A DNA stretch of 60,176 bases from Saccoglossus kowalevskii (lineage: Eukaryota; Hemichordata; Enteropneusta; Harrimaniidae), in contig NW_003133919.1 in the NCBI RefSeq assembly GCF_000003605.2, positions 1 to 60,176 on the forward strand, in the 5' to 3' direction. The notes under the pieces were generated by a model, which saw only the letters and a program-made list of their open reading frames with translations, ran no database searches and was not told the origin of the DNA. The position numbers and the translations under genes were made by a program. This document shows, piece by piece, positions 1 to 60,176 of the stretch; within the stretch, counting starts at the first letter, position 1, and every line of letters begins with the position of its first letter.

Positions 1-12
1 CATGACTGGCTA

Positions 13-84
13 GCCGTGATCGTCTAATGGTTAGGACATTGCGTTGTGGCCGCAATAACCCAGATTCGAATCCTGGTCTCGGCA
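13..84 (+). tRNA. tRNA-His (GTG), class D
   Basis: A53·C61 in the T stem, and A replaces G in the A-box TAGTGG. Confidence 0.75.
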
Positions 85-110
85 GATTGTGCTATTTGTA
101 GTTCTTGTTG

Positions 111-114
111 TTTT
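111..114 (+). terminator. Pol III terminator, GTTCTTGTTGTTTTG spacer type
   Basis: TTTT is 27 nt after the tRNA end at 84. Earlier T runs are too short. A second TTTT follows at 123-126 as a backup. This is the commonest terminator arrangement in the array. Confidence 0.65.
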
Positions 115-170
115 GAGTCGTATTTTGGTATTCTACATTCAATTCCATTTCAGAGTAACGGGTTACGAAA

Positions 171-190
171 CATAATCACGCAGTCATCAT
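171..190. other. nearly invariant spacer block
   Basis: CATAATCACGCAGTCATCAT is present with few changes in essentially every spacer, while neighbouring parts differ between spacer subtypes. Function unknown. It could be a protein-binding site or just the best-homogenised stretch. Confidence 0.5.
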
Positions 191-221
191 CAACTGCAGA
201 TAAAATGCAAGATCAATGCAC

Positions 222-230
222 TATACATAT
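222..230 (+). promoter_or_regulatory. TATA-like element upstream of tRNA units
   Basis: TATACATAT (TATACTTAT in other spacers) lies about 45-52 bp before the next tRNA and recurs in most units. Upstream TATA-like sequences can aid Pol III initiation, but this one is further away than the usual -30 region, so the role is uncertain. Confidence 0.3.
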
Positions 231-273
231 TCGACGCTTCATGAGAAGCACGTAATTCGAACATGACTGCCTT

Positions 274-345
274 GCCGTGATCGTCTAGTGGTTAGGACAT
301 TGCGTTTTGGCCTCAATAAGCCAGGTTCGAATCCTGGTCTCGGCA
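274..345 (+). tRNA. tRNA-His body with Gln anticodon (TTG)
   Basis: Anticodon loop TTTTGGC puts TTG at 307-309, which would read CAA (Gln). C30·U40 is unpaired. G replaces C just before the T stem. Confidence 0.7.
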
Positions 346-535
346 GATTGTGCGTTATGTTTTGTTTTGTTGTTTTGAGTCGTATTTTGGGATTCTACAT
401 TCAATTATTTTCCAGGGTAACAGGTTAGCAAACATAATCACGCAGTCATCATAAACTTCAGATTAAATGCAAGATCAATGCACTATACTTATTCGTCGCT
501 TACTGCGTAACACGTAATCCGAATATGACTGGCTA
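346..535. repeat. representative inter-tRNA spacer
   Basis: 190 bp between units. It holds the T-rich terminator zone, then GATTCTACATTCAATT, a pyrimidine-rich step ending CCAGGGTAACAGG, the nearly invariant block CATAATCACGCAGTCATCAT, ATGCAAGATCAATGCACTATA, and a variable 5' flank. I see no coding potential or known RNA in it. Confidence 0.85.
360..363 (+). terminator. Pol III terminator, TTTTGTTTTG spacer type
   Basis: TTTT starts 15 nt after the tRNA end at 345 and is followed by two more T4 runs. This tighter, repeated arrangement mostly follows tRNAs of class C. Confidence 0.7.
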
Positions 536-607
536 GCCGTGATCGTCTAGTGGTTAGGGCAATGCGTTGTGGCCGCAATAACACAGGTTCGAATGCTGGT
601 CTCGCCA
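536..607 (+). tRNA. tRNA-His (GTG), class E, decayed
   Basis: Class E T stem, A27·A43 and C2·C71. Probably a pseudogene. Confidence 0.55.
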
Positions 608-800
608 GATTGTGCGATAAGTCGTTGTTTTGTTGTTTTGAGTCGTATTTTTGAATTCTACATTCAATTCTTTTTTCCAGGGTAACAGGTTAGCAAACAT
701 AATCACGCAGTCATCATAAACTGCAGATTAAATGCAAGATCAATGCACTATACTTATTCGTCGCTTACTGCGTAACACGTAATCTGAACGTGACTGGCTA

Positions 801-872
801 TCCGTGATCGTCCTGTGGTTAGGACATTGCGTTGTGGCCGCAATAACCCAGGTTCGAATCCTGGTCTCGGCA
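801..872 (+). tRNA. tRNA-His (GTG), U1 variant
   Basis: U1·C72 opens the acceptor end, and the D arm reads TCCTGTGG. The rest is consensus. Loss of G1 should impair RNase P cleavage and G-1 addition. Confidence 0.65.
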
Positions 873-1061
873 GATTGTGCTATATGTAGTTCTTGTTGTT
901 TTGAGTCGTATTTTGGTATTCTACATTCAATTCCATTTCAGAGTAACAGGTTACGAAACATAATCACGCAGTCATCATAAACTGCCGATTAAATGCAAGA
1001 ACAATGCACTATAAATATTCGTCACTTACTGAATAGCACGTAATTCGAACATGACTGGCTA

Positions 1062-1133
1062 GCCGTGATCGTCTAGTGGTTAGGACATTGCGTTGTGGCC
1101 GCAATAACCCATGTTCGAATCCTGGTCTCGGCA
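1062..1133 (+). tRNA. tRNA-His (GTG), near consensus
   Basis: U52·C62 in the T stem is the only change from class A. Confidence 0.75.
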
Positions 1134-1322
1134 AATGTGCGATACGTGTTTTTGTTGTTCTTTGAATCGCATTTTGGAATTCTACATTCAATTCCATTTC
1201 AGGGTAACAGATTTGCAAACATAATCACGCAGTCATCATAAACTGTAGATTAAATGCAAGATCAATGCACTATACTTATTCGTCGCTTACTGAGTAACAC
1301 TTGATCCGAACTTGACTGGCTA

Positions 1323-1394
1323 GCCGTGATCGTCTAGTGGTTAGAACATTGCGTTGTGGCCGCAATAACCCAGATTCGAATCCTGGTCTCGGCA
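1323..1394 (+). tRNA. tRNA-His (GTG), class D
   Basis: A53, and A23 opens a D-stem pair. Confidence 0.7.
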
Positions 1395-1582
1395 GATTGT
1401 GCTATATGTAGTTCTTGTTGTTTTGAGTCGTATTTTGGGATACTACATTCAATTCCATTTCAGTGTAACAGGTTACGGAACATAATCACGCAGTCATCAT
1501 AAACTGCAGATAAAATGCAAGATCAATGCACTTATGTTTTTGTCGTTTACTGAGTAGCACGTAATTCGAACATGGCTGGCTA

Positions 1583-1654
1583 GCCGTGATCGTCTAGTGG
1601 TTAGGTCATTGCGTTGTGGCCGCAATAACCCAGATTCGAATCCTGGTCTCGGCA
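1583..1654 (+). tRNA. tRNA-His (GTG), class D with U24
   Basis: A53·C61 and U11·U24. Confidence 0.7.
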
Positions 1655-1842
1655 GATTGTGCGATATGTCGTTGTTTTGTTTTGATTCGTATTTTTGAAT
1701 TCTACATTCAATTCCATTCCAGGGTAACAGGTTAGCAAACATAATCACGCAGTCATCATAAACTTTAGATTAAATGCAAGATCAATGCACTATAATTATT
1801 CGTCGCTTACTGAGTAACACTAAATCCGAACATGACTGGCTA

Positions 1843-1918
1843 TCCGTGATCGTCCAGTGGTTAGGACATTGCGTTGTGGCCGCAATAACCCAGGTTCTAA
1901 TCCGGCCTGGTCTCGGCA
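1843..1918 (+). pseudogene. tRNA-His pseudogene with T-arm insertion
   Basis: 76 nt: a 4-nt insertion disrupts the T loop and 3' T stem, T57 damages the B box, and U1·C72 is unpaired. Confidence 0.8.
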
Positions 1919-2108
1919 GATTGTGCGTTATGTTTTGTTTTGTTGTTTTGAGTCGTATTTTGGGATTCTACATTCAATTCTTTTCCAGGGTAACAGGTTA
2001 GCAAACATAATCACGCAGTCATCATAAACTGCAGATTAAATGCAAGATCAATGCACTATACTTATTCGTCGCTTACTGCGTAACACTTAATCCGAATATG
2101 ACTGGCTA

Positions 2109-2180
2109 GCCGTGATCGTCTAATGGTTAGGACATTGCGTTGTGGCCGCAATAACCCAGATTCGAATCCTGGTCTCGGCA
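2109..2180 (+). tRNA. tRNA-His (GTG), class D
   Basis: Same as the copy at 13. Confidence 0.75.
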
Positions 2181-2369
2181 GATTGTGCTATTTGTAGTTC
2201 TTGTTGTTTTGAGTCGTATTTTGGTATTCTACATTCAATTCCATTTCAGAGTAACGGGTTACGAAACATAATCACGCAGTCATCATCAACTGCAGATAAA
2301 ATGCAAGATCAATGCACTATACATATTCGACGCTTCATGAGAAGCACGTAATTCGAACATGACTGCCTT

Positions 2370-2441
2370 GCCGTGATCGTCTAGTGGTTAGGACATTGCG
2401 TTTTGGCCTCAATAAGCCAGGTTCGAATCCTGGTCTCGGCA
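2370..2441 (+). tRNA. tRNA-His body with Gln anticodon (TTG)
   Basis: Same as the copy at 274; TTG at 2403-2405. Confidence 0.7.
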
Positions 2442-2631
2442 GATTGTGCGTTATGTTTTGTTTTGTTGTTTTGAGTCGTATTTTGGGATTCTACATTCAA
2501 TTATTTTCCAGGGTAACAGGTTAGCAAACATAATCACGCAGTCATCATAAACTTCAGATTAAATGCAAGATCAATGCACTATACTTATTCGTCGCTTACT
2601 GCGTAACACGTAATCCGAATATGACTGGCTA

Positions 2632-2703
2632 GCCGTGATCGTCTAGTGGTTAGGGCAATGCGTTGTGGCCGCAATAACACAGGTTCGAATGCTGGTCTCG
2701 CCA
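2632..2703 (+). tRNA. tRNA-His (GTG), class E, decayed
   Basis: Same as the copy at 536. Confidence 0.55.
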
Positions 2704-2896
2704 GATTGTGCGATAAGTCGTTGTTTTGTTGTTTTGAGTCGTATTTTTGAATTCTACATTCAATTCTTTTTTCCAGGGTAACAGGTTAGCAAACATAATC
2801 ACGCAGTCATCATAAACTGCAGATAAAATGCAAGATTAATGCACTATACTTATTGGTCGCTTACTGCGTAACACGAAATCCGAATATGACTGGCTC

Positions 2897-2968
2897 GCCG
2901 TGATCGTCTAGTGGTTAGGGCATTGCGTTGTGGCCGCAATAACACAGTTTCGAATGCTGGTCTCGGCA
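2897..2968 (+). tRNA. tRNA-His (GTG), class E, decayed
   Basis: A49·G65, and U53 faces G61. Confidence 0.55.
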
Positions 2969-3157
2969 GATTGTGCGATATGTAGTTCTTGATGTTTTGA
3001 GTCGTATTTCGGTATTCTACATTCAATTCCATTTCAGAGTAACAGGTTAGCAAACATAATCACGCAGTCATCATAAACTTTAGATTAAATGCAAGATCAA
3101 TGCACTATACTTATTCTTCGCTTACTGAGCAACACTTCCTCCGAACGTAACTGGCTA

Positions 3158-3229
3158 GCCGTGATCGTCTAGTGGTTAGGACATTGCGTTGTGGCCGCAA
3201 TAACCCAGGTTCGAATCCTAGTCTCGTCA
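3158..3229 (+). tRNA. tRNA-His (GTG), variant
   Basis: C50·A64 and C2·U71 are unpaired. Confidence 0.65.
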
Positions 3230-3425
3230 GATTGTGCTATATGTAGTTCTTGTTGTTTTGAGTCGTATTTTGGGATTCTATATTCAATACCATTTCAGAG
3301 TAACAGGTTACGAAACATAATCACGCAGTCATCATAATCTGCCGATTAAATGCAAGATCAATGCACTATACATATTCGACGCTTCCTGAGTAGCACGTAA
3401 TTCGAACATGACTGGCTAGCCGTGA

Positions 3426-3436
3426 TCGTCTAGTGG
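3426..3436 (+). promoter_or_regulatory. A box of the consensus tRNA-His copy
   Basis: TCGTCTAGTGG fits the internal A box bound by TFIIIC in tRNA genes. It is shared by most units. Recurrent variants are TCGTCCAGTGG, TCGTCTGTTGG, TCGTCTCGTGG and TCCTGTGG forms. Confidence 0.85.
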
Positions 3437-3468
3437 TTAGGACATTGCGTTGTGGCCGCAATAACCCA

Positions 3469-3479
3469 GGTTCGAATCC
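3469..3479 (+). promoter_or_regulatory. B box of the consensus tRNA-His copy
   Basis: GGTTCGAATCC matches the TFIIIC B-box consensus exactly. Class D units have GATTCGAATCC and class E units have GGTTCGAATGC, so those units should bind TFIIIC less well. Confidence 0.9.
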
Positions 3480-3507
3480 TGGTCTCGGCAAATTGTGCAA
3501 TATGTTG

Positions 3508-3511
3508 TTTT
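3508..3511 (+). terminator. Pol III terminator of the consensus copy
   Basis: TTTT lies 18 nt after the discriminator base of the 3419 unit, giving a short 3' trailer. It is the first T run of four or more after the gene. Confidence 0.7.
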
Positions 3512-3670
3512 GAGTCGCATTTTGGAATTCTACATTCAATTCCATTTCAGGGTAACAGATTTGCAAACATAATCACGCAGTCATCATAAACTGTAGATTA
3601 AATGCAAGATCAATGCACTATACTTATTCGTCGCTAACTGTGTAACACTTGATCCGAAATTGACTGGCTA

Positions 3671-3742
3671 GCCGTGATCGTCTAGTGGTTAGGACATTCC
3701 GTTGTGGCCGCAATAACCCAGGTTCGAATCCTGGTCTGGGCA
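3671..3742 (+). tRNA. tRNA-His (GTG), class B
   Basis: C29·C41 and G4·G69, the latter next to U5·U68. Confidence 0.7.
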
Positions 3743-3931
3743 GATTGTGCTATCTGTAGTTCTTGTTGTTTTGAGTCGTATTTTGGTATTCTACATTCAA
3801 TTCCATTTCAGAGTAACAGGTTACGAAACATAATCACACAGTCATCATAAATTGCAGATTAAATGCAAGATCAATGCACTATACATATTCGTCGCTTCAT
3901 GAGAAGCACGTAATTCGAACATGACTGCCTT

Positions 3932-4003
3932 GCCGTGATCGTCTAGTGGTTAGGATATTTCGTTGTGGCCTCAATAACCCAGGTTCGAATCCTGGTCTCG
4001 GCA
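3932..4003 (+). tRNA. tRNA-His (GTG), class C
   Basis: Two adjacent anticodon-stem mismatches; D stem ends in U25 (wobble). Confidence 0.65.
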
Positions 4004-4193
4004 GATTGTGCGTTATGTTTTGTTTTGTTGTTTTGAGTCGTGTTTTGGGATTCTACATTCAATTCTTTTCCAGGGTAACAGGTGAGCAAACATAATCATG
4101 CAGTCATCATAAACTGCAGATTAAATGCAATATCAATGCACTATACATATTCGACGCTTCCTGAGTAGCACGTAATTCGAACATGACTGGCTA

Positions 4194-4265
4194 GCCGTGA
4201 TCGTCTAGTGGTTAGGACATTGCGTTGTGGCCGCAATAACCTTGGTTCGAATCCTGGTCTCGGCA
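4194..4265 (+). tRNA. tRNA-His (GTG), class F
   Basis: T stem CTTGG/CCTGG. Confidence 0.8.
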
Positions 4266-4455
4266 GATTGTGCGTTATGTCGTTGTTTTGTTGTTTTGAG
4301 TCGTATTTTGGGATTCTACATTCAATTCTATTCCAGTGTAACAGATTAGTAAACATAATCACGCAGTCATCATAAACTGCAGATAAAATGCAAGATTAAT
4401 GCACTATACTTATTGGTCGTTACTGCGTAACACGAAATCCGAATATGACTGGCTC

Positions 4456-4527
4456 GCCGTGATCGTCTAGTGGTTAGGGCATTGCGTTGTGGCCGCAATA
4501 ACACAGGTTCGAATGCTGGTCTCGGCA
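4456..4527 (+). tRNA. tRNA-His (GTG), class E
   Basis: Class E T stem; U11·G24 wobble. Confidence 0.6.
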
Positions 4528-4715
4528 GATTGTACTATATGTAGTTCTTGATGTTTTGAGTCGTATTTCGGTATTCTACATTCAATTCCATTTCAGAGTA
4601 ACAGGTTAGCAAACATAATCACGCAGTCATCATAAACTTTAGATTAAATGCAAGAACAATGCACTATACTTATTCTTCGCTTACTGAGCAACACTTCCCC
4701 GTACGTGACTGGCTA

Positions 4716-4787
4716 GCCGTGATCGTCTAGTGGTTAGGGCATTGCGTTGTGGCCGCAATAACCCAGGTTCGAATCCTGGTCTCGGCA
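4716..4787 (+). tRNA. tRNA-His (GTG), consensus-like
   Basis: Only a U11·G24 wobble separates it from class A. Confidence 0.93.
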
Positions 4788-4976
4788 GATTGTGCTATAT
4801 GTAGTTCTTGTTGTTTTGAGTCGTATTTTGGGATTCTACATTCAATTCCATTTCAGAGTAACAGGTTACGAAACATAATCACGCAGTCATCATAAACTGC
4901 AGATTAAATGCAAGATCAATGCACTATAGATATTCGTGACTTACTGAATAGCACGTAATTCGAACATGACTGGCTA

Positions 4977-5048
4977 GCCGTGATCGTCTAGTGGTTAGGA
5001 CATTGCGTTGTGGCCGCAATAACCCAGGTTCGAATCCTGGTCTCGGCA
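4977..5048 (+). tRNA. tRNA-His (GTG), consensus
   Basis: Class A. Confidence 0.95.
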
Positions 5049-5228
5049 AATTGTGCAATATGTTGTTTTGAGTCGCATTTTGGAATTCTACATTCAATTC
5101 CATTTCAGGGTAACAGATTTGCAAACATAATCACGCAGTCATCATAAACTGTAGATTAAATGCAAGATCAATGCACTATACTTATTCGTCGCTAACTGTG
5201 TAACACTTGATCCGAAATTGACTGGCTA

Positions 5229-5300
5229 GTCGTGATCGTCTAGTGGTTAGGACATTCCGTAGTGGCCGCAATAACCCAGGTTCGAATCGTGGTCTGGGCA
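5229..5300 (+). tRNA. tRNA-His (GTG), class B with A33, decayed
   Basis: A replaces the universal U33 before the anticodon; also G52·G62 and U2·G71. Confidence 0.5.
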
Positions 5301-5489
5301 GATTCTGCTATATGTAGTTCTTGTTGTTTTGAGTCGCATTTTGGAATTCTACATTCAATTCCATTTCAGGGTAACAGATTTGCAAACATAATCACGCAGT
5401 CATCATAAACTGTAGATTAAATGCAAGATCAATGCACTATGCTTATTCGTCGCTTACTGAGTAACACTTGATCCGAACTTGACTGGCTA

Positions 5490-5561
5490 GCCGTGATCGT
5501 CTAGTGGTTAGGACATTCCGTTGTGGCCGCAATAACCCAGGTTCGAATCCTGGTCTGGGCA
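5490..5561 (+). tRNA. tRNA-His (GTG), class B
   Basis: C29·C41 and G4·G69 only. Confidence 0.7.
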
Positions 5562-5750
5562 GATTGTGCTATATGTAGTTCTTGTTGTTTTGAGTCGTAT
5601 TTTGGTATTCTACATTCAATTCCATTTCAGAGTAACAGGTTACGAAACATAATCACGCAGTCATCATAAACTGCAGATTAAATGCAAGATCAATGCACTA
5701 TACATATTCGTCGCTTCATGAGAAGCACGCAATTCGAACATGACTGCCTT

Positions 5751-5821
5751 GCGTGATCGTCTAGTGGGTAGGACATTTCGTTGTGGCCTCAATAACCCAG
5801 GTTCGAATCCTGGTCTCGGCA
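5751..5821 (+). pseudogene. tRNA-His pseudogene, short acceptor
   Basis: 71 nt: one C is missing (GCGTGA), so the acceptor stem is out of register. Class C anticodon stem. D loop GTGGGTAGG. Confidence 0.75.
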
Positions 5822-6011
5822 GATTGTGCGTTATGTTTTGTTTTGTTGTTTTGAGTCGTATTTTGGGATTCTACATTCAATACTTTTCCAGGGTAACAGG
5901 TGAGCAAACATAATCACGCAGTCATCATAAACTGCAGATTAAATGCAATATCAATGCACTATACTTATTCGTCGCTTACTGAGTAGCACGATATCCGAAC
6001 ATGGCTGGCTA

Positions 6012-6083
6012 GCCGTGATCGTCTAGTGGTTAGGTCATTGCGTTGTGGCCGCAATAACCCAGATTCGAATCCTGCTCTCGGCA
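6012..6083 (+). tRNA. tRNA-His (GTG), class D with U24
   Basis: Also C49·C65. Confidence 0.6.
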
Positions 6084-6271
6084 GATTGTGCGATATGTCG
6101 TTGTTTTGTTTTGATTCGTATTTTTGAATTCTACATTCAATTCTATTCCAGGGTAACAGGTTAGCAAACATAATCACGCAGTCATCATAAACTTTAGATT
6201 AAATGCAAGATCAATGCACTATACTTATTCGTCGCTTACTGACTAACATTTAATCCGAACATGACTGGCTA

Positions 6272-6343
6272 GCCGTGATCGTCTAGTGGTTAGGGCATTC
6301 CGTTGTGGCCGCAATAACCCAGGTTCGAATCCTGGTCTGGGCA
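6272..6343 (+). tRNA. tRNA-His (GTG), class B
   Basis: With U11·G24 wobble. Confidence 0.7.
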
Positions 6344-6532
6344 GATTATGCTATATGTAGTTCTTGTTGTTTTGAGTCGTATTTTGGTATTCTACATTTA
6401 ATTCCATTTCAGAGTAACAGGTTACGAAACATAATCACGCAGTCATCATAAACTGCAGATTAAATGCAAGATCAATGCAGTATACATATTCGTCACTTAC
6501 TGAATAGCACGTAATTCGAACATGACTGGCTA

Positions 6533-6604
6533 GCCGTGATCGTCTGTTGGTTAGGACATTCCGTTGTGGCCGCAATAACCCAGGTTCGAATCCTGGTCTG
6601 GGCA
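6533..6604 (+). tRNA. tRNA-His (GTG), class B
   Basis: D arm reads TCTGTTGG, altering the A box. Confidence 0.65.
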
Positions 6605-6793
6605 GATTGTGCTATATGTAGTTCTTGTTGTTTTGAGTCGTATTTTGGTATTCTACATTCAATTCCATTTCAGAGTAACAGGTTACGAAACATAATCACG
6701 CAGTCATCATAAACTGCAGATTAAATGCAAGATCAATGCACTATACATATTCGTCGCTTCATGAGAAGCACGCAATTCGAACATGACTGCCTT

Positions 6794-6864
6794 GCGTGAT
6801 CGTCTAGTAGGTAGGACATTTCGTTGTGGCCTCAATAACCCAGGTTCGAATCCTGGTCTCGGCA
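6794..6864 (+). pseudogene. tRNA-His pseudogene, short acceptor
   Basis: 71 nt, like 5751, with D loop AGTAGGTAGG. Confidence 0.75.
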
Positions 6865-7053
6865 GATTGTGCGTTATGTTTTGTTTTGTTGTTTTGAGTC
6901 GTATTTTGGGATTCTACATTCAATTCTTTTCCAGGGAACAGGTGAGCAAACATAATCATGCAGTCATCATAAACTGCAGATTAAATGCAATATCAATGCA
7001 CTATACATATTCGACGCTTCCTGAGTAGCACGTAATTCGAACATGACTGGCTA

Positions 7054-7125
7054 GCCGTGATCGTCTAGTGGTTAGGACATTGCGTTGTGGCCGCAATAAC
7101 CTTGGTTCGAATCCTGGTCTCGGCA
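7054..7125 (+). tRNA. tRNA-His (GTG), class F
   Basis: U50·G64 and U51·U63. Confidence 0.8.
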
Positions 7126-7308
7126 GATTGTGCGTTATGTCGTTGTTTTGAGTCGTATTTTGGGATTCTACATTCAATTCTATTCCAGGGTAACAGATTA
7201 GTAAACATAATCACGCAGTCATCATAAACTGCAGATAAAATGCAAGATTAATGCACTATACTTATTGGTCGCTTACTGCGTAACACGAAATCGGAATATG
7301 ACTGGCTC

Positions 7309-7380
7309 GCCGTGATCGTCTAGTGGTTAGGGCATTGCGTTGTGGCCGCAATAACACAGGTTCGAATGCTGGTCTCGGCA
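7309..7380 (+). tRNA. tRNA-His (GTG), class E
   Basis: T stem ACAGG/GCTGG; U11·G24 wobble. Confidence 0.6.
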
Positions 7381-7569
7381 GATTGTGCGATATGTAGTTC
7401 TTGATGTTTTGAGTCGTATTTCGGTATTCTACATTCAATTCCATTTCAGAGTAACAGGTTAGCAAACATAATCACGCAGTCATCATAAACTTTAGATTAA
7501 ATGCAAGAACAATGCACTATACTTATTCTTCGCTTACTGAGCAACACTTACTCCGAACGTGACTGGCTA

Positions 7570-7641
7570 GCCGTGATCGTCTAGTGGTTAGGACATTGCG
7601 TTGTGGCCGCAATAACCCAGCTTCGAATCCTGGTCTCGGCA
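7570..7641 (+). tRNA. tRNA-His (GTG), C53 variant
   Basis: C53·C61 breaks the T stem and B box; otherwise class A. Confidence 0.7.
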
Positions 7642-7830
7642 GATTGTGCTATATGTAGTTCTTGTTGTTTTGAGTCGTATTTTGGGATTCTACATTCAAT
7701 TCCATTTCAGAGTAACAGGTTACGAAACATAATCACGCAGTCATCATAAACTGCAGATTAAATGCAAGATCAATGCACTATACATATTCGACGCTTCCTG
7801 AGTAGCACGTAATTCGAACATGACTGGCCA

Positions 7831-7902
7831 GCCGTGATCGTCTAGTGGTTAGGACAATGCGTTGTGGCCGCAATAACACAGGTTCGAATGCTGGTCTCGG
7901 CA
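7831..7902 (+). tRNA. tRNA-His (GTG), class E
   Basis: Also A27·A43. Confidence 0.55.
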
Positions 7903-8091
7903 GATTGTGCGATATGTAGTTCTTGTTGTTTTGAGTCGTATTTTGGTATTCTACATTCAATTCCATTTCAGAGTAACAGGTTAGCAAACATAATCACGCA
8001 GTCATCATAAACTTTAGATTAAATGCAAGATCAATGCACTATACTTATTCTTCGCTTACTGAGCAACACTTCCTCCGAACGTAACTGGCTA

Positions 8092-8163
8092 GTCGTGATC
8101 GTCTAGTGGTTAGGACATTGCGTTGTGGCCGCAATAACCCAGGTTCGAATCCTAGTCTCGTCA
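8092..8163 (+). tRNA. tRNA-His (GTG), variant
   Basis: U2·U71 and C50·A64. Confidence 0.6.
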
Positions 8164-8352
8164 GATTGTGCTATATGTAGTTCTTGTTGTTTTGAGTCGT
8201 ATTTTGGGATTCTATATTCAATTCCATTTCAGAGTAACAGGTTACGAAACATAATCACGCAGTCATCATAATCTGCCGATTAAATGCAAGATCAATGCAC
8301 TATACATATTCGACGCTTCCTGAGTAGCACGTAATTCGAACATGACTGGTTA

Positions 8353-8424
8353 GCCGTGATCGTCTAGTGGTTAGGACATTGCGTTGTTCCCGCAATAACC
8401 CAGGTTCGAATCCTGGTCTCGGCA
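8353..8424 (+). tRNA. tRNA-His body with Asn anticodon (GTT)
   Basis: Loop TTGTTCC puts GTT at 8386-8388 (reads AAC/AAU, Asn) with C37. All stems match class A. Confidence 0.75.
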
Positions 8425-8612
8425 GATTGTGCGATATGTCGTTGTTTTGTTTTGATTCGTATTTTTGAATTCTACATTCAATTCTATTCCAGGGTAACAG
8501 GTTAGCAAACATAATCACGCAGTCATCATAAACTTTAGATTAAATGCAAGATCAATGCACTCTACTTATTCGTCGCTTACTGACTAACATTTAATCCGAA
8601 CATGACTGGCTA

Positions 8613-8684
8613 GCCGTGATCGTCTAGTGGTTAGGGCATTCCGTTGTGGCCGCAATAACCCAGGTTCGAATCCTGGTCTGGGCA
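8613..8684 (+). tRNA. tRNA-His (GTG), class B
   Basis: With U11·G24 wobble. Confidence 0.7.
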
Positions 8685-9466: not shown

Positions 9467-9662
9467 GATTGTGCGTTATGTTTTGTTTTGTTGTTTTGAG
9501 TCGTATTTTGGGATACTACATTCAATTCTTTGCCAGGGTATACGTAACAGGTTTGCAAACATAATCACGCAGTCATCATAAACTGTAGATTAAATGCAAT
9601 ATCAATGCACTATACTTAATCGTCGCTTACTGAGTAGCACGATATCCGAACATGGCTGGCTA

Positions 9663-16438: not shown

Positions 16439-16510
16439 TCCGTGATCGTCCAGTGGTTAGGACATTGCGTTGTGGCCGCAATAACCCAGGTTCGAATCCT
16501 GGTCTCGGCA
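16439..16510 (+). tRNA. tRNA-His (GTG), U1 variant
   Basis: U1·C72 only. It is followed by the shortened spacer but keeps its TTTT terminator. Confidence 0.7.
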
Positions 16511-16593
16511 GATTGTGCTATATGTAGTTCTTGTTGTTTTGAGTCGTATTTTGGGATTCTACATTCAATTCTACATTCGAACATGACTGGCTA
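16439..16593 (+). repeat. short 155-bp unit with spacer deletion
   Basis: Next tRNA starts 155 bp on. The spacer jumps from TACATTCAATTCTACATTCG straight to the 5' flank of the next unit, losing about 106 bp including the invariant block. Short TTC homology lies at the join. Confidence 0.9.
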
Positions 16594-51545: not shown

Positions 51546-51617
51546 GCCGTGATCGTCTAGTGGTTAGGACATTGCGTTGTGGCCTCAATAACCCAGATTC
51601 GAATCCTGGTCTCGGCA
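51546..51617 (+). tRNA. tRNA-His (GTG), U40/A53 variant
   Basis: Counterpart of 36688. Confidence 0.67.
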
Positions 51618-51807
51618 GATTGTGCGTTATGTTTTGTTTTGATGTTTTGAGTCGTATTTTGGGATTCTACATTCAATTCTTTTCCAGGGTAACAGGTAAG
51701 CAAACATAATCACGCAGTCATCATAAACTGCTGATTAAATGCAAGATCAATGCACTATACTTATTCGTCGCTTACTGCGTAACACGTAATCCGAACATGA
51801 CTGGCTA

Positions 51808-51879
51808 GCCGTGATCGTCTAGTGGTTAGGACATTGCGTTGTGGCCTCAATAACCCAGATTCGAATCCTGGTCTTCGCA
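51808..51879 (+). tRNA. tRNA-His (GTG), U40/A53 variant, decayed
   Basis: Counterpart of 36950. Confidence 0.52.
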
Positions 51880-52069
51880 GATTGTGCGTTATGTTTTGTT
51901 TTGTTGTTTTGAGTCGTATTTTGGGTTTCTACATTCAATTCCATTTCAGGGTAACAGATTTGCAAACATAATCACGTACTCATCATAAACTGTAGATTAA
52001 ATGCAAGATCAATGCACTATACTTATTCGTCGCTTACTGAGTAACACTTGATCCGAACTTGACTGGCTA

Positions 52070-52141
52070 GCCGTGATCGTCTCGTGGTTAGGACATTCTG
52101 TTGTGGCCGCAATAACCCAGGTTCGAATCCTGGTCTCGGCA
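52070..52141 (+). tRNA. tRNA-His (GTG), C29/U30 variant
   Basis: Counterpart of 37212. Confidence 0.7.
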
Positions 52142-52330
52142 GATTGTGCTATATGTAGTTCTTGTTGTTTTGAGTCGTATTTTGGTATTCTACATTCAAT
52201 TCCATTTCAGAGTAACAGGTTACGAAACATAATCACGCAGTCATCATAAACTGCAGATTAAATGCAAGATCAATGCACTATACACATTCGTCGCTTCATG
52301 AGAAGCACGTAATTCGAACATGACTGCCTT

Positions 52331-52402
52331 GCCGTGATCGTCTAGTGGTTAGGACATTTCATTGTGGCCTCAATAACCCAGGTTCGAATCCTGGTCTCGG
52401 CA
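52331..52402 (+). tRNA. tRNA-His (GTG), class C with A31
   Basis: A31·C39 makes three mismatches in the anticodon stem. Confidence 0.52.
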
Positions 52403-52591
52403 GGTTGTGCGTAATGTTTTGTTTTGTTGTTTTGAGTCGTATTTTGGGATTCTACATTCAATTCTTTTCCAGGGTACAGGTTAGCAAACATAATCACGCA
52501 GTCATCATAAACTGCAGATTAAATGCAATATCAATGCACTCTACTTATTCGTCGCTTACTGAGTAGCACGATATCCGAACATGGCTGGCTA

Positions 52592-52663
52592 GCCGTGATC
52601 GTCTAGTGGTTAGGACATTGCGTTGTGGCCGCAATAACCCAGATTCGAATCCTGGTCTCGGCA
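52592..52663 (+). tRNA. tRNA-His (GTG), class D
   Basis: A53·C61 only. Confidence 0.78.
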
Positions 52664-52851
52664 GATTGTGCTATATGTAGTTCTTGTTGTTTTGAGTCGT
52701 ATTTTGGGATACTACATTCAATTCCATTTCAGAGTAACAGGTTACGGAACATAATCACGCTGTCATCATAAACTGCAGATAAAATGCAAGATCAATGCAC
52801 TTACGTTTTTGTCGCTTACTGAGTAGCATGTAATTCGAACATGGCTGGCTA

Positions 52852-52923
52852 GCCGTGATCGTCTAGTGGTTAGGTCATTGCGTTGTGGCCGCAATAACCC
52901 AGATTCGAATCCTGGTCTCGGCA
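52852..52923 (+). tRNA. tRNA-His (GTG), class D with U24
   Basis: A53·C61 and U11·U24. Confidence 0.7.
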
Positions 52924-53111
52924 GATTGTGCGATATGTCGTTGTTTTGTTTTGATTCGTATTTTTGAATTCTACATTCAATTCTATTCCAGGGTAACAGG
53001 TTAGCAAACATAATCACGCAGTCATCATAAACTTTAGATTAAATGCAAGATCAATGCACTATACTTATTCGTCGCTTACTGCGTAACACGTAATCCGAAT
53101 ATGACTGGCTA

Positions 53112-53183
53112 GCCGTGATCGTCTAGTGGTTAGGGCATTGCGTTGTGGCCGCAATAACACAGGTTCGAATGCTGGTCTCGGCA
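53112..53183 (+). tRNA. tRNA-His (GTG), class E
   Basis: With U11·G24 wobble. Confidence 0.6.
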
Positions 53184-53374
53184 GATTGTGCGATAAGTCG
53201 TTGTTTTGTTGTTTTGAGTCGTATTTTGGGATTCTACATTCAATTCCATTTCAGAGTAACAGGTTACGAAACATAATCACGCAGTCATCATAAACTGCCG
53301 ATTAAATGCAAGATCAATGCAGTATACATATTCGTCACTTACTGAATAGCACGTAATTCGAACATGACTGGCTA

Positions 53375-53446
53375 GCCGTGATCGTCTGTTGGTTAGGACA
53401 TTCCGTTGTGGCCGCAATAACCCAGGTTCGAATCCTGGTCTGGGCA
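53375..53446 (+). tRNA. tRNA-His (GTG), class B
   Basis: D arm TCTGTTGG. Confidence 0.65.
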
Positions 53447-53635
53447 GATTGTGCTATATGTAGTTCTTGTTGTTTTGAGTCGTATTTTGGTATTCTACAT
53501 TCAATTCCATTTCAGAGTAACAGGTTACGAAACATAATCACGCAGTCATCATAAACTGCAGATTAAATGCAAGATCAATGCACTATACATATTCGTCGCT
53601 TCAAGAGAAGCACGTAATTCGAACATGACTGCCTT

Positions 53636-53707
53636 GCCGTGATCGTCTAGTGGTTAGGACATTGCGTTGTGGCCTCAATAACCCAGATTCGAATCCTGGT
53701 CTCGGCA
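53636..53707 (+). tRNA. tRNA-His (GTG), U40/A53 variant
   Basis: Same as 36688. Confidence 0.67.
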
Positions 53708-53897
53708 GATTGTGCGTTATGTTTTGTTTTGATGTTTTGAGTCGTATTTTGGGATTCTACATTCAATTCTTTTCCAGGGTAACAGGTAAGCAAACATAAT
53801 CACGCAGTCATCATAAACTGCAGATTAAATGCAATATCAATGCACTATACTTATTCGTCGCTTACTGAGTAACACATGATCCGAACTTGACTGGCTA

Positions 53898-53969
53898 GCC
53901 GTGATCGTCTCGTGGTTAGGACATTCTGTTGTGGCCGCAATAACCCAGGTTCGAATCCTGGTCTCGGCA
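53898..53969 (+). tRNA. tRNA-His (GTG), C29/U30 variant
   Basis: Like 37212 in the gene, but its 3' spacer is that of class C (GGTTGTGCGTAATG), so the unit looks recombinant. Confidence 0.7.
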
Positions 53970-54158
53970 GGTTGTGCGTAATGTTTTGTTTTGTTGTTTT
54001 GAGTTGTATTTTGGGATTCTACATTCAATTCTTTTCCAGGGTACAGGTTAGCAAACATAATCACGCAGTCATCATAAACTGCAGATTAAATGCAATATCA
54101 ATGCACCATACTTATTCGTCGCTTACTGAGTAGCACGATATCCGAACATGGCTGGCTA

Positions 54159-54230
54159 GCCGTGATCGTCTAGTGGTTAGGACATTGCGTTGTGGCCGCA
54201 ATAACCCAGATTCGAATCCTGGTCTCGGCA
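54159..54230 (+). tRNA. tRNA-His (GTG), class D
   Basis: A53·C61 only. Confidence 0.78.
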
Positions 54231-54419
54231 GATTGTGCTATATGTAGTTCTTGTTGTTTTGAGTCGTATTTTGGGATACTACATTCAATTCCATTTCAGA
54301 GTAACAGGTTACGAAACATAATCACGCAGTCATCATAAACTGCCGATTAAATGCAAGATCAATGCAGTATACATATTCGTCACTTACTGAATAGCACGTA
54401 ATTCGAACATGACTAGCTA

Positions 54420-54491
54420 GCCGTGATCGTCTAGTGGTTAGGACATTGCGTTGTGCCCGCAATAACCCAGGTTCGAATCCTGGTCTCGGCA
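54420..54491 (+). tRNA. tRNA-His (GTG), class G
   Basis: Counterpart of 38515 (offset 15905). Confidence 0.8.
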
Positions 54492-54679
54492 GATTGTGCT
54501 ATATTTAGTTCTTATTGTTTTGAGTCGTATTTTGGGATTCTACATTCAATTCCATTTCAGAGTAACAGGTTACGAAACAAAATCACGCAGTCATCATAAA
54601 CTGTAGATTAATGGAAGATCAATGCACTATACATATTCGTCGCTTCCTGAGTAGCACGAAATTCGAACATGACTGGCTA

Positions 54680-54751
54680 GCCGTGATCGTCTGTTGGTTA
54701 GGACATTCCGTTGTGGCCGCAATAACCCAGGTTCGAATCCTGGTCTGGGCA
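54680..54751 (+). tRNA. tRNA-His (GTG), class B
   Basis: D arm TCTGTTGG; counterpart of 38775. Confidence 0.65.
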
Positions 54752-54940
54752 GATCGTGCTATATGTAGTTCTTGTTGTTTTGAGTCGTATTTTGGTATTC
54801 TACATTCAATTCCATTTCAGAGTAACAGGTTACGAAACATAATCACGCAGTCATCATAAACTGCAGATTAAATGCAAGATCAATGCACTATACATATTCG
54901 TCGCTTCATGAGAAGCACGTAATTCGAACATGACTGCCTT

Positions 54941-55012
54941 GCCGTGATCGTCTAGTGGTTAGGACATTGCGTTGTGGCCTCAATAACCCAGATTCGAATC
55001 CTGGTCTCGGCA
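54941..55012 (+). tRNA. tRNA-His (GTG), U40/A53 variant
   Basis: Counterpart of 39036. Confidence 0.67.
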
Positions 55013-55201
55013 GATTGTGCGTTATGTTTTGTTTTGATGTTTTGAGTCGTATTTTGGGATTCTACATTCAATTCTTTTCCAGGGTAACAGGTAAGCAAAC
55101 ATAATCACGCAGTCATCATAAACTGTAGATTAATGCAAGATCAATGCACTATACATATTCGTCGATTCCTGAGTAGCACGAAATTCGAACATGACTGGCT
55201 A

Positions 55202-55273
55202 GCCGTGAGCGTCTAGTGGTTAGGACATTCCGTTGTGGCCGCAATAACCCAGGTTCGAATCCTGGTCTTGGCA
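55202..55273 (+). tRNA. tRNA-His (GTG), G8 variant
   Basis: G8 replaces conserved U8; C29·C41 and G4·U69. Confidence 0.6.
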
Positions 55274-55461
55274 GATTGTGCTATATGTAGTTCTTGTTGT
55301 TTTGAGTCGTATTTTGGTATTCTACATTCAATTCCATTTCAGAGTAACAGCTAACGAAACATAATAACGCAGTCATCATAAACTATAGATTAATGCAAGA
55401 TCAATGCACTATACATATTCGTCGCTTACTGAGTAGGACGAAATTCGAACATGACTGGCTA

Positions 55462-55533
55462 GCCGTGATCGTCTAGTGGTTAGGACATTGCGTTGTGCCC
55501 ACAATAACCCAAGTTCGAATCCTGGTCTCGGCA
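55462..55533 (+). tRNA. tRNA-His (GTG), class G, decayed
   Basis: C37, C30·A40 and A52·C62. Confidence 0.55.
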
Positions 55534-55722
55534 GATTGTGCTATATGTAGATCTTGTTGTTTTGAGTCGTATTTTGGGATTCTACATTCAATTCCATTTC
55601 ATAGTAACAGGTTACGAAACATAATCACGCAGTCATCATAAACTGCAGATTAAATGCAAGATCAATGCACTATACATATTCGTCGCTTCATGAGAAGCAC
55701 GTAATTCGAACATGACTGTCTT

Positions 55723-55794
55723 GCCGTGATCGTCTAGTGGTTAGGACATCGCGTTGTGGCCTCAATGATCCAGGTTCGAATCCTGGTCTCGGCA
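55723..55794 (+). tRNA. tRNA-His (GTG), variant
   Basis: C28·A42 and C30·U40; variable loop TGAT. Confidence 0.6.
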
Positions 55795-55984
55795 GATTGT
55801 TCGTTATGTTTTGTTTTGTTGTTTTGAGTCGTATTTTGGGATTCTACATTCAATTCTTTTCCAGGGTAACAGGTTAGCAAACATAATCACGCAGTCATCA
55901 TAAACTGCAGATTAAATGCAAGATCAATGCACTATACTTATTCGTCGCTTACTGCGAATCACGTAATCCGAACTTGACTGGCTA

Positions 55985-56056
55985 TCCGTGATCGTCCTGT
56001 GGTTAGGACATTGCGTTGTGGCCGCAATAACCCAGGTTCGAATCCTGGTCTCGGCA
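55985..56056 (+). tRNA. tRNA-His (GTG), U1 variant
   Basis: U1·C72 with the TCCTGTGG D arm, as at 801. Confidence 0.65.
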
Positions 56057-56245
56057 GATTGTGCTATATGTAGTTCTTGTTGTTTTGAGTCGTATTTTGG
56101 TATTCTACAATCAATTCCATTTCAGAGTAACAGGTTACGAAACATAATCACGCAGTAATCATAAACTGCCGATTAAATGCACGATCAATGCACTATACAT
56201 ATTCGTCGCTTACTGAGTAACACGAAATTCGAACATGACTGGCTA

Positions 56246-56317
56246 GCCGTGATCGTCTAGTGGTTAGGACATTGCGTTGTGGCCGCAATAACCTTGGTTC
56301 GAATCCTGGTCTCGGCA
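56246..56317 (+). tRNA. tRNA-His (GTG), class F
   Basis: Counterpart of 15132 without the D-loop C. Confidence 0.8.
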
Positions 56318-56508
56318 GATTGTGCGTTATGTCGTTGTTTTGTTGTTTTAAGTCGTATTTTGGGATTCTACATTCAATTCTTTTCCAGGGTAACAGATTA
56401 GCAAACATAATCACGCAGTCATCATAAACTGCAGATTAAATGCAAGATCAATGCACTATACTTATTGGTCGCTTACTGCATAACACGAAATCCGAATATG
56501 ACTGGCTC

Positions 56509-56580
56509 GCCGTGATCGGCTAGTGGTTAGGACATTGCGTTGTGGCAGCAATAACCCAGGTTCGAATCCTGGTCTCGGCA
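56509..56580 (+). tRNA. tRNA-His (GTG), A39 variant
   Basis: G31·A39 and G11·A24, as at 47625 (offset 8884). Confidence 0.68.
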
Positions 56581-56769
56581 GATTGTGCGATATGTAGTTC
56601 TTGTTGTTTTGAGTCGTATTTTTGAATTCTACATTCAATTCTATTCCAGGGTAACAGGTCAGCAAACATAATCACGCAGTCATCATAAACTGTAGATTAA
56701 ATGCATTATCAATGCACTATACTTATTCGTCGGTTACTGAGTAGCACCTAATCAGAACATGACTGGCTA

Positions 56770-56841
56770 GTCGTGATCGTCTCGTGGATAGGACATTGCA
56801 TTGTGAACGCAATAACCCAGGTTCGAATCCTGGTCTCCGCA
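56770..56841 (+). tRNA. tRNA-His (GTG), class H
   Basis: Same as 13828. Confidence 0.6.
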
Positions 56842-57032
56842 GATTGTGCGTTATGTCGTTGCTTTGTTGTTTTGAGTTGTATTTTGGGATACTACATTCA
56901 ATTCTTTTCCAGGGTAACAGGTTTGCAAACATAATCACGCAGTCATCATAAACTGTAGATTAAATGCAATATCAATGCACTATACTTATTCGTCGCTTAC
57001 TGAGTAGCACGATATCCGAACATGGCTGGCTA

Positions 57033-57104
57033 GCCGTGATCGTCTAGTGGTTAGGACATTCCGTTGTGGCCGCAATAACCCAGATTCGAATCCTGGTCTC
57101 GGCA
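57033..57104 (+). tRNA. tRNA-His (GTG), class D with C29
   Basis: A53·C61 and C29·C41. Confidence 0.65.
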
Positions 57105-57293
57105 GATTGTGCTATATGTAGTTCTTGTTGTTTTGAGTCGTATTTTGGTATTCTACATTCAATTCCATTTCAGAGTAACAGGTTACGGAACATAATCACG
57201 CAGTCATCATAAACTGCAGATAAAATGCAAGATCAATGCACTTACTTTTTTGTCGCTTTACTGAGTAGCACGTAATTCGAACATGGCTGGCTA

Positions 57294-57365
57294 GGCGTGA
57301 TCGTCCAGTGGTTAGGTCATTGCGTTGTGGCCGCAATAACCCAGATTCGAATCCTGGTCTCGGCA
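57294..57365 (+). tRNA. tRNA-His (GTG), class G2
   Basis: Same as 14351. Confidence 0.55.
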
Positions 57366-57553
57366 GATTGTGCGATATGTTGTTGTTTTGTTTTGATTCG
57401 TATTTTTGAATTCTACATTCAATTCTATTCCAGGGTAACAGGTTAGCAAACATAATCACGCAGTCATCATAAACTTTAGATTAAATGCAAGATCAATGCA
57501 CTATACTTATTCGTCGCTTACTGAGTAACACTAAATCCGAACATGACTGACTA

Positions 57554-57625
57554 TCCGTGATCGTCCAGTGGTTAGGACATTGCGTTGTGGCCGCAATAAC
57601 CCAGGTTCGAATCCTGGTCTCGGCA
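57554..57625 (+). tRNA. tRNA-His (GTG), U1 variant
   Basis: U1·C72; counterpart of 16439, followed by the short spacer. Confidence 0.7.
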
Positions 57626-57708
57626 GATTGTGCTATATGTAGTTCTTGTTGTTTTGAGTCGTATTTTGGGATTCTACATTCAATTCTACATTCGAACATG
57701 ACTGGCTA
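57554..57708 (+). repeat. short 155-bp unit, same deletion as 16439
   Basis: Same join as at 16439. It is shared by descent through the 41.1-kb offset duplication. Confidence 0.9.
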
Positions 57709-57780
57709 GCCGTGATCGTCTAGTGGTTAGGACATTGCCTTGTGGCCGCAATAACCCAGGTTCGAATCCTGGTCTCGGCA
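57709..57780 (+). tRNA. tRNA-His (GTG), C31 variant
   Basis: C31·C39; counterpart of the consensus copy 16594. Confidence 0.75.
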
Positions 57781-57972
57781 AATTGTGCGATATGTTGTTT
57801 TTGTTGTTGTTTTGAGTCGCATTTTGGAATTCTACATTCAATTCCATTTCAGGGTAACAGATTTGCAAACATAATCACGCAGTCATCATAAACTGTAGAT
57901 TAAATGCAAGATCAATGCACTATACTTATTCGTCGCTTACTGAGTAACACTTGATCTGAACTTGACTGGCTA

Positions 57973-58043
57973 GTCGTGATCGTCTAGTGGTTAGGACATT
58001 CCGTTGTGGCCGCAATAACCCAGGTTCGAATCCTGTCTGGGCA
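57973..58043 (+). pseudogene. tRNA-His class B pseudogene, 71 nt
   Basis: One base lost at the T-stem/acceptor junction (CCTGTCTGGGCA), plus class B changes. Confidence 0.65.
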
Positions 58044-58230
58044 GATTGTGCTATATGTAGTTCTTGTTGTTTGAGTCGCATTTTGAATTCTACATTCAAT
58101 TCCATTTCAGGGTAACAGATTTGCAAACATAATCACGCAGTCATCATAAACTGTAGATTAAATGCAAGATCAATGCACTATACTTTTTCGTCGCTTACTG
58201 AGTAACACTTGATCCGAACTTGACTGGCTA

Positions 58231-58302
58231 GTCGTAATCGTCTAGTGGTTAGGACATTCCGTTGTGGCCGCAATAACCCAGGTTCGAATCCTGGTCTGGG
58301 CA
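58231..58302 (+). tRNA. tRNA-His (GTG), class B, decayed
   Basis: U2·G71 and A6·C67; counterpart of 17119. Confidence 0.55.
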
Positions 58303-58491
58303 GATTGTGCTATATGTAGTTCTTGTTGTTTTGAGTCGTATTTTGGTATTCTACATTCAATTCCATTTCAGAGTAACAGGTTACGAAACATAATCACACA
58401 GTCACCATAAACTGCAGATTAAATGCAAGATCAATGCACTATACATATTCGTCGCTTCATGAGAAGCACGTAATTCGAACATGACTGCCTT

Positions 58492-58563
58492 GCCGTGATC
58501 GTCTAGTGGTTAGGACATTTCGTTGTGGCCTCAATAACCCAGGTTCGAATCCTGGTCTCGGCA
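58492..58563 (+). tRNA. tRNA-His (GTG), class C
   Basis: Counterpart of 17380. Confidence 0.67.
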
Positions 58564-58753
58564 GATTGTGCGTTATGTTTTGTTTTGTTGTTTTGAGTCG
58601 TATTTTGGGATTCTACATTCAATTCTTTTCCAGGGTAACAGATTAGCAAACATAATCACGCAGTCATCATAAACTGCAGATTAAATGCAAGATCAATGCA
58701 CTATACTTATTCGTCGCTTACTGAGTAACACTTGATCTGAACATGACTGGCTA

Positions 58754-58825
58754 GCCGTGATCGTCTAGTGGTTAGGACATTCCGTTGTGGCCGCAATAAC
58801 CCAGGTTCAAATCCTGGTCTGGGCA
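58754..58825 (+). tRNA. tRNA-His (GTG), class B
   Basis: A57 in the T loop. Confidence 0.66.
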
Positions 58826-59017
58826 GATTGTGCTATATGTAGTTCTTGTTGTTGTTTTAAGTCGTATTTTGGTATTCTACATTCAATTCCATTTCAGAGT
58901 AACAGGTTACGAAACATAATCATGCAGTCATCATAAACTGCAGATTAAATGCAAGATCACTGCACTATACATATTCGTCACTTACTGAATAGCACGTAAT
59001 TCGAACATGACTGGCTA

Positions 59018-59089
59018 GCCGTGATCGTCTAGTGGTTAGGACATTGCGTTGTGGCCGCAATAACCTTGGTTCGAATCCTGGTCTCGACA
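59018..59089 (+). tRNA. tRNA-His (GTG), class F with A71
   Basis: Counterpart of 13312. Confidence 0.65.
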
Positions 59090-59272
59090 GATTGTGCGTT
59101 ATGTTGTTGTTTTGAGTCGTATTTTGGGATTCTACATTCAATTCTTTTCCAGGGTAACAGATTAGCAAACATAATCACGCAGTCATCATAAACTGCCGAT
59201 TAAATGCAAGATCAATGCACTATACTTATTCGTCGCTTACTGAGTAGCACGATATCCGAACATGGCTGGCTA

Positions 59273-59344
59273 GCCGTGATCGTCTAGTGGTTAGGACATT
59301 GCGTTGTGGCCGCCATAACCCAGGTTCGTATTCTGGTCTCGGCA
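59273..59344 (+). tRNA. tRNA-His (GTG), variant
   Basis: U28·C42 and G53·U61; T loop TTCGTAT weakens the B box. Confidence 0.6.
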
Positions 59345-59533
59345 GATTGTGCTCTATGTAGTTCTTGTTGTTTTGAGTCGTATTTTGGTATTCTACATTC
59401 AATTCCATTTCAGAGTAACAGGTTAGCAAACATAATCACGCAGTCATCATCAACTGTATATTAAATGCAAGATCAATGCACTATACTTATTCTTCCCTTA
59501 CTGAGCAACACTTACTCCGAACGTGACTGGCTA

Positions 59534-59605
59534 GCCGTGATCGTCTAGTGGTTAGGACATTCCGTTGTGGTCGCAATAACCCAGGTTCGAATCCTGGTCT
59601 GGGCA
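59534..59605 (+). tRNA. tRNA-His (GTG), class B
   Basis: U38. Confidence 0.68.
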
Positions 59606-59794
59606 GATTGTGCTATATGTAGTTCTTGTTGTTTTGAGTTGTATTTTGGTATTCTACATTCAATTCCATTTCAGAGTAACAGGTTACGAAACATAATCAC
59701 GCAGTCATCATAAACTGCAGATTAAATGCAAGATCAATGCACTATACATATTCGTCGCTTCATGAGAAGCACGTAATTCGAACATGACTGCCTT

Positions 59795-59866
59795 GCCGTG
59801 ATCGTCTAGTGGTTAGGACATTGCGTTGTGGCCTCAATAACCCAGGTTAGAATCCTGGTCTCGGCA
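59795..59866 (+). tRNA. tRNA-His (GTG), U40 variant
   Basis: C30·U40, and A56 in the T loop and B box. Confidence 0.62.
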
Positions 59867-60056
59867 GATTGTGCGTTATGTTTTGTTTTGTTGTTTTGAG
59901 TCGTATTTTGGGATTCTACATTCAATTCTTTTCCAGGGTAACAGGTTAGCAAACATAATCACGCAGTCATCATAAACTTCAGATTAAATGCAAGATCAAT
60001 GCACTATACTTATTCGTCGCTTACTGCGTAACACGTAATCCGAATATGACTGGCTA

Positions 60057-60128
60057 GCCGTGATCGTCTAGTGGTTAGGACATTGCGTTGTGGCCGCAAT
60101 AACACAGGTTCGAATGCTGGTCTCGGCA
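60057..60128 (+). tRNA. tRNA-His (GTG), class E
   Basis: Last unit. Its spacer is cut by the window end at 60176. Confidence 0.6.
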
Positions 60129-60176
60129 GATTGTGCGATAAGTCGTTGTTTTGTTGTTTTGAGTCGTATTTTGTGA

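Follow-up and report, generated by a model that had tools for sequence, protein, structure and literature searches.

A tRNA-His gene as the monomer of a satellite-like tandem array in Saccoglossus kowalevskii

Introduction

Can one tRNA gene act as the monomer of a satellite, and if so, how does the tRNA consensus persist while most of its copies decay? The question is raised by contig NW_003133919.1 of the hemichordate Saccoglossus kowalevskii (RefSeq assembly GCF_000003605.2; 572,110,611 bases in 4,830 contigs), which carries tandem units with a tRNA-His sequence from one end to the other. The window analysed here is this entire contig, 60,176 bp in length, called C2577 below. We find that it is probably part of a tRNA-His gene satellite that is re-copied and decays, in which a minority of copies are exact and the rest are probably passive.

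Results

Searching with a profile of the 72-base consensus tRNA (nhmmer), we identified 232 tRNA-His units in the window, arranged head-to-tail and all on the + strand (232/232), with the first match at 13–84 and the last at 60,057–60,128. The 231 unit spacings are all 250–268 bp, except for two of 155 bp, so no insertion breaks up the array, and Tandem Repeats Finder (TRF) reported a period of 261 with 220.6 + 9.5 copies. Because the window is the whole contig and units stand at both ends of its 60,176 bases, the array (1..60176, + strand, period ~261 bp) runs off both contig ends. With tRNA sequence in each of its same-orientation units, it has the layout of a tandem tRNA gene array. ARAGORN (standard code) called 216 tRNAs in the window, 199 as His(GTG) and 17 with another or an unreadable anticodon, and Rfam RF00005 met its gathering score at 227 places. 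A sequence-only reading of this DNA had described at least 232 tRNA-His units with no edge in view, forming a satellite-like, one-tRNA array over 60 kb; our searches agree with it on number, identity and missing edges, and they place units on other contigs as well.

One exact spacer motif occurs at 116 places genome-wide, and the 100 of these that were listed put array units on eight further contigs. Profile searches counted 136 units in 35,700 bp for C824, 97 units in 24,983 bp for C1317 and 71 units in 18,191 bp for C2137. C2206 has 23 units in the 6,000 of its 10,476 bases that were read, and 12 tRNA matches within 3,021 bases cut from C2500 place the array there too. C3151 and C3441, whose sequence was unread, are known from repeated motif matches only (among the same 100 places). 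The eighth contig, C343 (651 kb), has eight degenerate tRNA matches, which form three groups within 629.7–645.9 kb. From two motif counts, 339 and 116 places, we subtracted 6 and 1 that lie away from the arrays proper (two of these being known from a motif match alone) and scaled the remainder by motif frequency in four fully read contigs. The resulting totals of ~862 and ~881 units are rough because motif frequency differs between contigs, and our estimate for the assembly is roughly 860–880 units.

The units carry a clear record of block duplication. Mean unit identity is 0.897–0.902 in three contigs, within which the median identity of a unit to its closest match is 99.2–99.6%. Runs of 4–18 consecutive units recur within a contig at 98.3–99.8% identity (longest runs listed, three contigs). 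In the window, an 11-unit block at 3671..6532 (end approximate; + strand) recurs from 9924 on with a mean identity of 99.3%, and a 9-unit run from 15132 matches a run from 56246, also on the + strand, at 99.4% with odd-length units excluded. The two 155-bp units belong to the same landscape: one, a tRNA with a shortened spacer, lies at 16439..16593 (+), and the second, at 57554..57708 (+), is near the end of the region that repeats the block from 15132. Between contigs, only two of ten pairs share runs of at least 3 units at 97.5% identity, namely C2577–C1317 (18 runs, the longest of 5 units) and C824–C2206 (4 runs, the longest of 7). These shared runs set three subfamilies: A, which holds the window, consists of C2577 and C1317; B of C824 and C2206; and C of C2137. 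Long and unbroken, built from a short monomer, and with duplicated blocks and variants peculiar to single arrays, the array has the features of satellite DNA, and the picture is one of a satellite renewed by block exchange.

The state of individual copies was assessed in five contigs, in which 553 units were delimited and the 535 of 235–290 bp were aligned; 18 units of odd length were excluded (13 from C2137, 2 each from C2577 and C1317, and 1 from C824). The tRNA matches the consensus exactly in 11 of the 232 window copies and in 74 of the 535 ordinary-length units, and C824 has 35 exact copies among 136. The consensus itself scores 62.3 bits with Rfam, as does the exact window copy at 3419..3490; the other ten start at 4977, 10970, 16594, 21034, 23115, 23376, 27286, 27547, 31716 and 45289, and all eleven are on the + strand. 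At least 20 of the 21 stem pairs form in 148 of the 535 units and all 21 in a single one, while the 387 units that form fewer than 20 have lost at least one pair besides a mismatch common to the array, described below. Folding the consensus as a single sequence did not produce the full cloverleaf, and this fold was set aside.

Anticodon and downstream T-run, which together served as one mark of a functional tRNA-His gene, are present in most or all units. GTG is found in 516 of the 535 units, the others having ATG (8), TTG (4), GCG (4), GTT (2) and CTG (1), and TTTT occurs no more than 70 nt downstream of the tRNA in 535 of 535, lying at 14–28 nt in at least 506 (counts made without a control set). 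Outside these figures stand the 18 odd-length units, among them 13 short C2137 units (217–225 bp), 12 of which carry ATG instead of GTG. ARAGORN called 19 of 70 tRNAs on C2137 as His with anticodon ATG and, over the other four contigs scanned, gave this anticodon once. The single isoacceptor of the sequence-only reading is thus nearly right, with these minority anticodons as the correction. Its one repeated gene holds in that all 232 units contain the tRNA sequence; they are not 232 equal genes, as the counts of exact and fully paired copies attest.

Is the tRNA held more constant than its spacer? Among the subfamily consensuses, 0 of 72 tRNA sites differ, as against 9–12 of 189 other sites. 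Measured from each subfamily's own consensus, the tRNA has diverged 0.69, 0.49 and 0.68 times as much as spacer positions 85–240 in the three subfamilies. Indels are found in 4.7% of units in the tRNA window and in 12–85% of units in the 72-site windows tested that are clear of the tRNA, where T-runs contribute. For subfamilies B and C, every window as low in divergence as the tRNA overlaps the tRNA. These results point to constraint on the tRNA.

A number of observations weigh against constraint. The difference between consensuses is weakly significant (pairwise Fisher p 0.04–0.07; p 0.014 for the union, which becomes 0.066 when one block is entered only once), and the bootstrap ranges for the three ratios, 0.65–0.73, 0.42–0.57 and 0.54–0.83, are optimistic because the resampled units share ancestry. 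In subfamily A, the divergence of the tRNA (0.0381) is equalled or undercut by spacer windows that start at 168–169 (0.0352). The tRNA shows no shortage of private (singleton) substitutions, the ratio of tRNA to rest being 1.15, 1.67, 1.61 and 1.89 in four contigs. Stems are more variable than loops (nucleotide diversity, π, 0.078 vs 0.040), and there are almost no compensatory stem changes. Finally, 21% of 3-site stretches equal or better the conservation of the anticodon. Weighed together, the results for and against constraint suggest that the consensus is kept up while individual copies are free to decay.

Two parts of the spacer stand out in these comparisons. Unit positions 168–240, upstream of the next tRNA, match the tRNA in conservation in subfamily A and contain CACTATACTTATT ~45–55 bp upstream of that tRNA, which is possibly an upstream promoter element. 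The 33 bp directly upstream of the tRNA (unit positions 241–261 and 1–12) are about twice as diverged as spacer 85–240 in all three subfamilies.

Nearly all units fall short of full pairing on account of an acceptor-stem mismatch in the consensus itself, where T5 faces T67 (unit numbering; U5.U67 in the RNA). Animal tRNA-His usually has an A opposite T5. The pair is T-T in 532 of the 535 units, at odds with the fully paired acceptor stem of a functional eukaryotic tRNA-His gene, and it is also T-T in two copies that we read outside the array. These were recovered with a pattern that matches 29 places, 25 on array contigs and four, with TCTCGGCAT as the 3′ end, on non-array contigs; the pattern required a non-G base after the tRNA, and outside copies followed by G would escape it. 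The copies at C2452:99212–99310 and C4205:39615–39713 have the same 72 bases as the consensus, between flanks unlike those of the array. Both lie ~2 kb from a contig end (the contigs being 101,391 and 41,540 bp, respectively) and they share 23 of the 27 flanking bases read, and may therefore represent a single locus, duplicated or allelic. Since their 72 bases are identical to the consensus, decay of the acceptor stem specific to the array is ruled out. The other two matches, at 9475 and 10447 on C4530, are 972 bp apart and known from the pattern alone; they could represent a further small cluster or else terminal repeats.

Exact-pattern searches of this one assembly, which a more diverged gene or one located in a gap would escape, did not recover a normally paired tRNA-His. 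A pattern for the usual tRNA-His 3′ end matched 0 places genome-wide. Two patterns allowing any base but T at position 67 agreed in their matches, 3 places on C824 and C2500 and none outside array contigs, and any base but T at position 5 occurred at 4 places, on C824, C2137 and C3441, with none outside contigs that have array units or repeated array motifs. Among the degenerate units of C343, A is found at position 67 in 639,485–639,553 and G in 630,003–630,066; perhaps these are older states, or chance.

In the same part of C343 (630001–650000), the degenerate array units lie amid retroelement-like remnants and a stretch of 4,024 N. We read the frames between and after the tRNA groups as putative BEL/Pao-like and LINE-like (long interspersed nuclear element) remnants, and the groups look like a decayed edge of the array. 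At the ends of the window, the first tRNA-His(GTG) copy (13..84, +; ARAGORN, Rfam 56.3 bits) differs from the 72-base consensus, and its spacer (85..273, +) has a T-rich, terminator-like stretch 3′ of the tRNA followed by ~150 bp to the next tRNA. The last copy before the contig end (60057..60128, +; nhmmer) scores 46.5 bits with Rfam. Elsewhere in the assembly, a COX1 query matched contig C4830 at 84%, with 5 in-frame TGA codons, in keeping with an invertebrate mitochondrion.

Discussion

The monomer of this array is a complete tRNA sequence with a T-run behind it, probably one tRNA-His(GTG) gene with ~190 bp of flank. A and B box sequences lie within the tRNA and the T-run mostly 14–28 nt downstream, which would allow RNA polymerase III to transcribe an intact copy on its own. 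Unequal exchange would copy the multi-unit blocks that we observe, and in this way grow and reshuffle the array, while individual copies would drift into pseudogenes. The same consensus tRNA in three subfamilies, identical to the two outside copies, points to a pool of tRNA-His genes that are constantly copied anew while they decay. Exact copies, ~1 in 7 units over five contigs and ~1 in 20 in the window, may supply tRNA-His together with the outside copies, and the remaining units are probably passive repeats.

If instead the array were a selected dosage reservoir, with many copies expressed and copy number meeting a high demand for tRNA-His, one could readily understand that in each of the three subfamilies the tRNA has diverged less than the average of its spacer, that GTG and a terminator-like T-run are kept in 516 and 535 of the 535 units, and that C824 holds so many exact copies. 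We consider this unlikely, given that 461 of the 535 units are inexact and 387 fall short of 20 stem pairs, that singletons are not depleted in the tRNA, that in subfamily A, to which the window belongs, part of the spacer equals the tRNA in conservation, and that the same tRNA is present outside the array on C2452 and C4205. The array might also be kept for its RNA polymerase III promoters, through TFIIIC binding, a boundary function or nuclear organisation, and not for the tRNA product. Loop sites, among them parts of the A and B boxes, vary less than stem sites, in keeping with such a role, but neither box stands out: the A box is matched or exceeded in conservation by 13% of unit stretches of its size, and the B box by 43%. 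We therefore hold it to be quite improbable. The sequence-only reading had suggested that the array could act as a chromatin boundary, a nuclear organiser or a replication-pausing zone, or could serve a tissue in need of much His-tRNA; these are conceivable roles.

An origin of the unit as a tRNA-derived retroelement turned tandem, either a short interspersed nuclear element (SINE) or a Helenus-type terminal-repeat retrotransposon in miniature (TRIM), has precedents in published Helenus tandem arrays (PMC10886601) and SINE-derived satellites (PMC10702118), and the four TCTCGGCAT copies on other contigs, with two of them close together on C4530, could be taken in its favour. It is nevertheless very improbable. 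Dispersed whole-unit copies, as expected of a SINE, were not found with the one exact spacer motif, which among the 100 of 116 places listed is confined to nine contigs with tRNA units or repeated motif, and both outside copies read have non-array flanks. Nor does the consensus unit have a polypurine tract near a 3′ terminal repeat, as expected of Helenus and TRIMs, because no purine run in it is longer than 4; a consensus tRNA of 62.3 bits likewise speaks against such an element. There is also the assembly to consider, since the window contig starts and stops inside the array and the assembler could have repeated or collapsed units. An artefact of this kind is not supported by units that differ by ~10% in a mosaic order, or by five contigs that, when compared, have no common run of more than 7 units at 97.5%. 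The ~90% mean identity, the duplicated blocks and the three subfamilies argue against it, and we give it almost no credence.

The re-copied, decaying satellite is thus the reading that we prefer. A further possibility, less likely than not, is that the standard nuclear tRNA-His of this species has a fixed U5.U67 mismatch and that nearly all of its genes sit in the satellite. If true, histidyl-tRNA synthetase (HisRS), the G-1 addition enzyme and end processing would tolerate the mismatch or have adapted to it. A mismatched acceptor stem common to the array and to the two outside copies read is a testable oddity in an otherwise very conserved molecule.

How does the array compare with known systems? 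A survey of tRNA genes in 74 genomes found clusters of at least 50 members in Nematostella and teleosts; gene pairs were mostly mixed in Nematostella and zebrafish, and mostly for the same amino acid in drosophilids (PMC2888827). As in our array, neighbouring genes in these animal clusters are less than 1 kb apart, mostly parallel and accompanied by pseudogenes, whereas here the mixed pairs of Nematostella and zebrafish give way to one 261-bp monomer, repeated 232 times without a break and divided into subfamilies. Entamoeba also has long tandem arrays with tRNA genes in their units, but these fall into 25 types of unit carrying as many as 5 tRNA genes, with short tandem repeats between genes, and copies are mostly uniform within an isolate (PMC2652664), in contrast to the single, mostly inexact tRNA and 90% mean identity seen here. 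The tRNA variable-number tandem repeat at human 1q23.3 is likewise an animal tandem repeat with tRNA genes, but its unit is GC-rich, 7.3 kb long, present in 9–43 copies and equipped with a CTCF site (PMC4041453), as against 261 bp and hundreds of units. SINE- and TRIM-derived repeats share the tandem arrangement of an element, and Helenus has tRNA-like sequence inside its long terminal repeat (PMC10702118, PMC10886601, PMC6934838), while the present array has no dispersed full unit among the matches listed, no polypurine tract, and a plain His tRNA followed by a T-run.

The statement in the sequence-only reading that known arrays are built differently is therefore largely fair for Entamoeba and human 1q23.3, with their multi-gene or larger units, and overlooks the large animal clusters already reported. 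Our literature search, of partial coverage, found no report of a tRNA-His satellite, and the accessible part of PMC2770079 yielded nothing on tRNA arrays. What the locus offers is one tRNA gene acting as a satellite monomer, complete with subfamilies, block duplications and an apparent degenerate edge, which lets one ask how a tRNA consensus persists when most of its copies decay.

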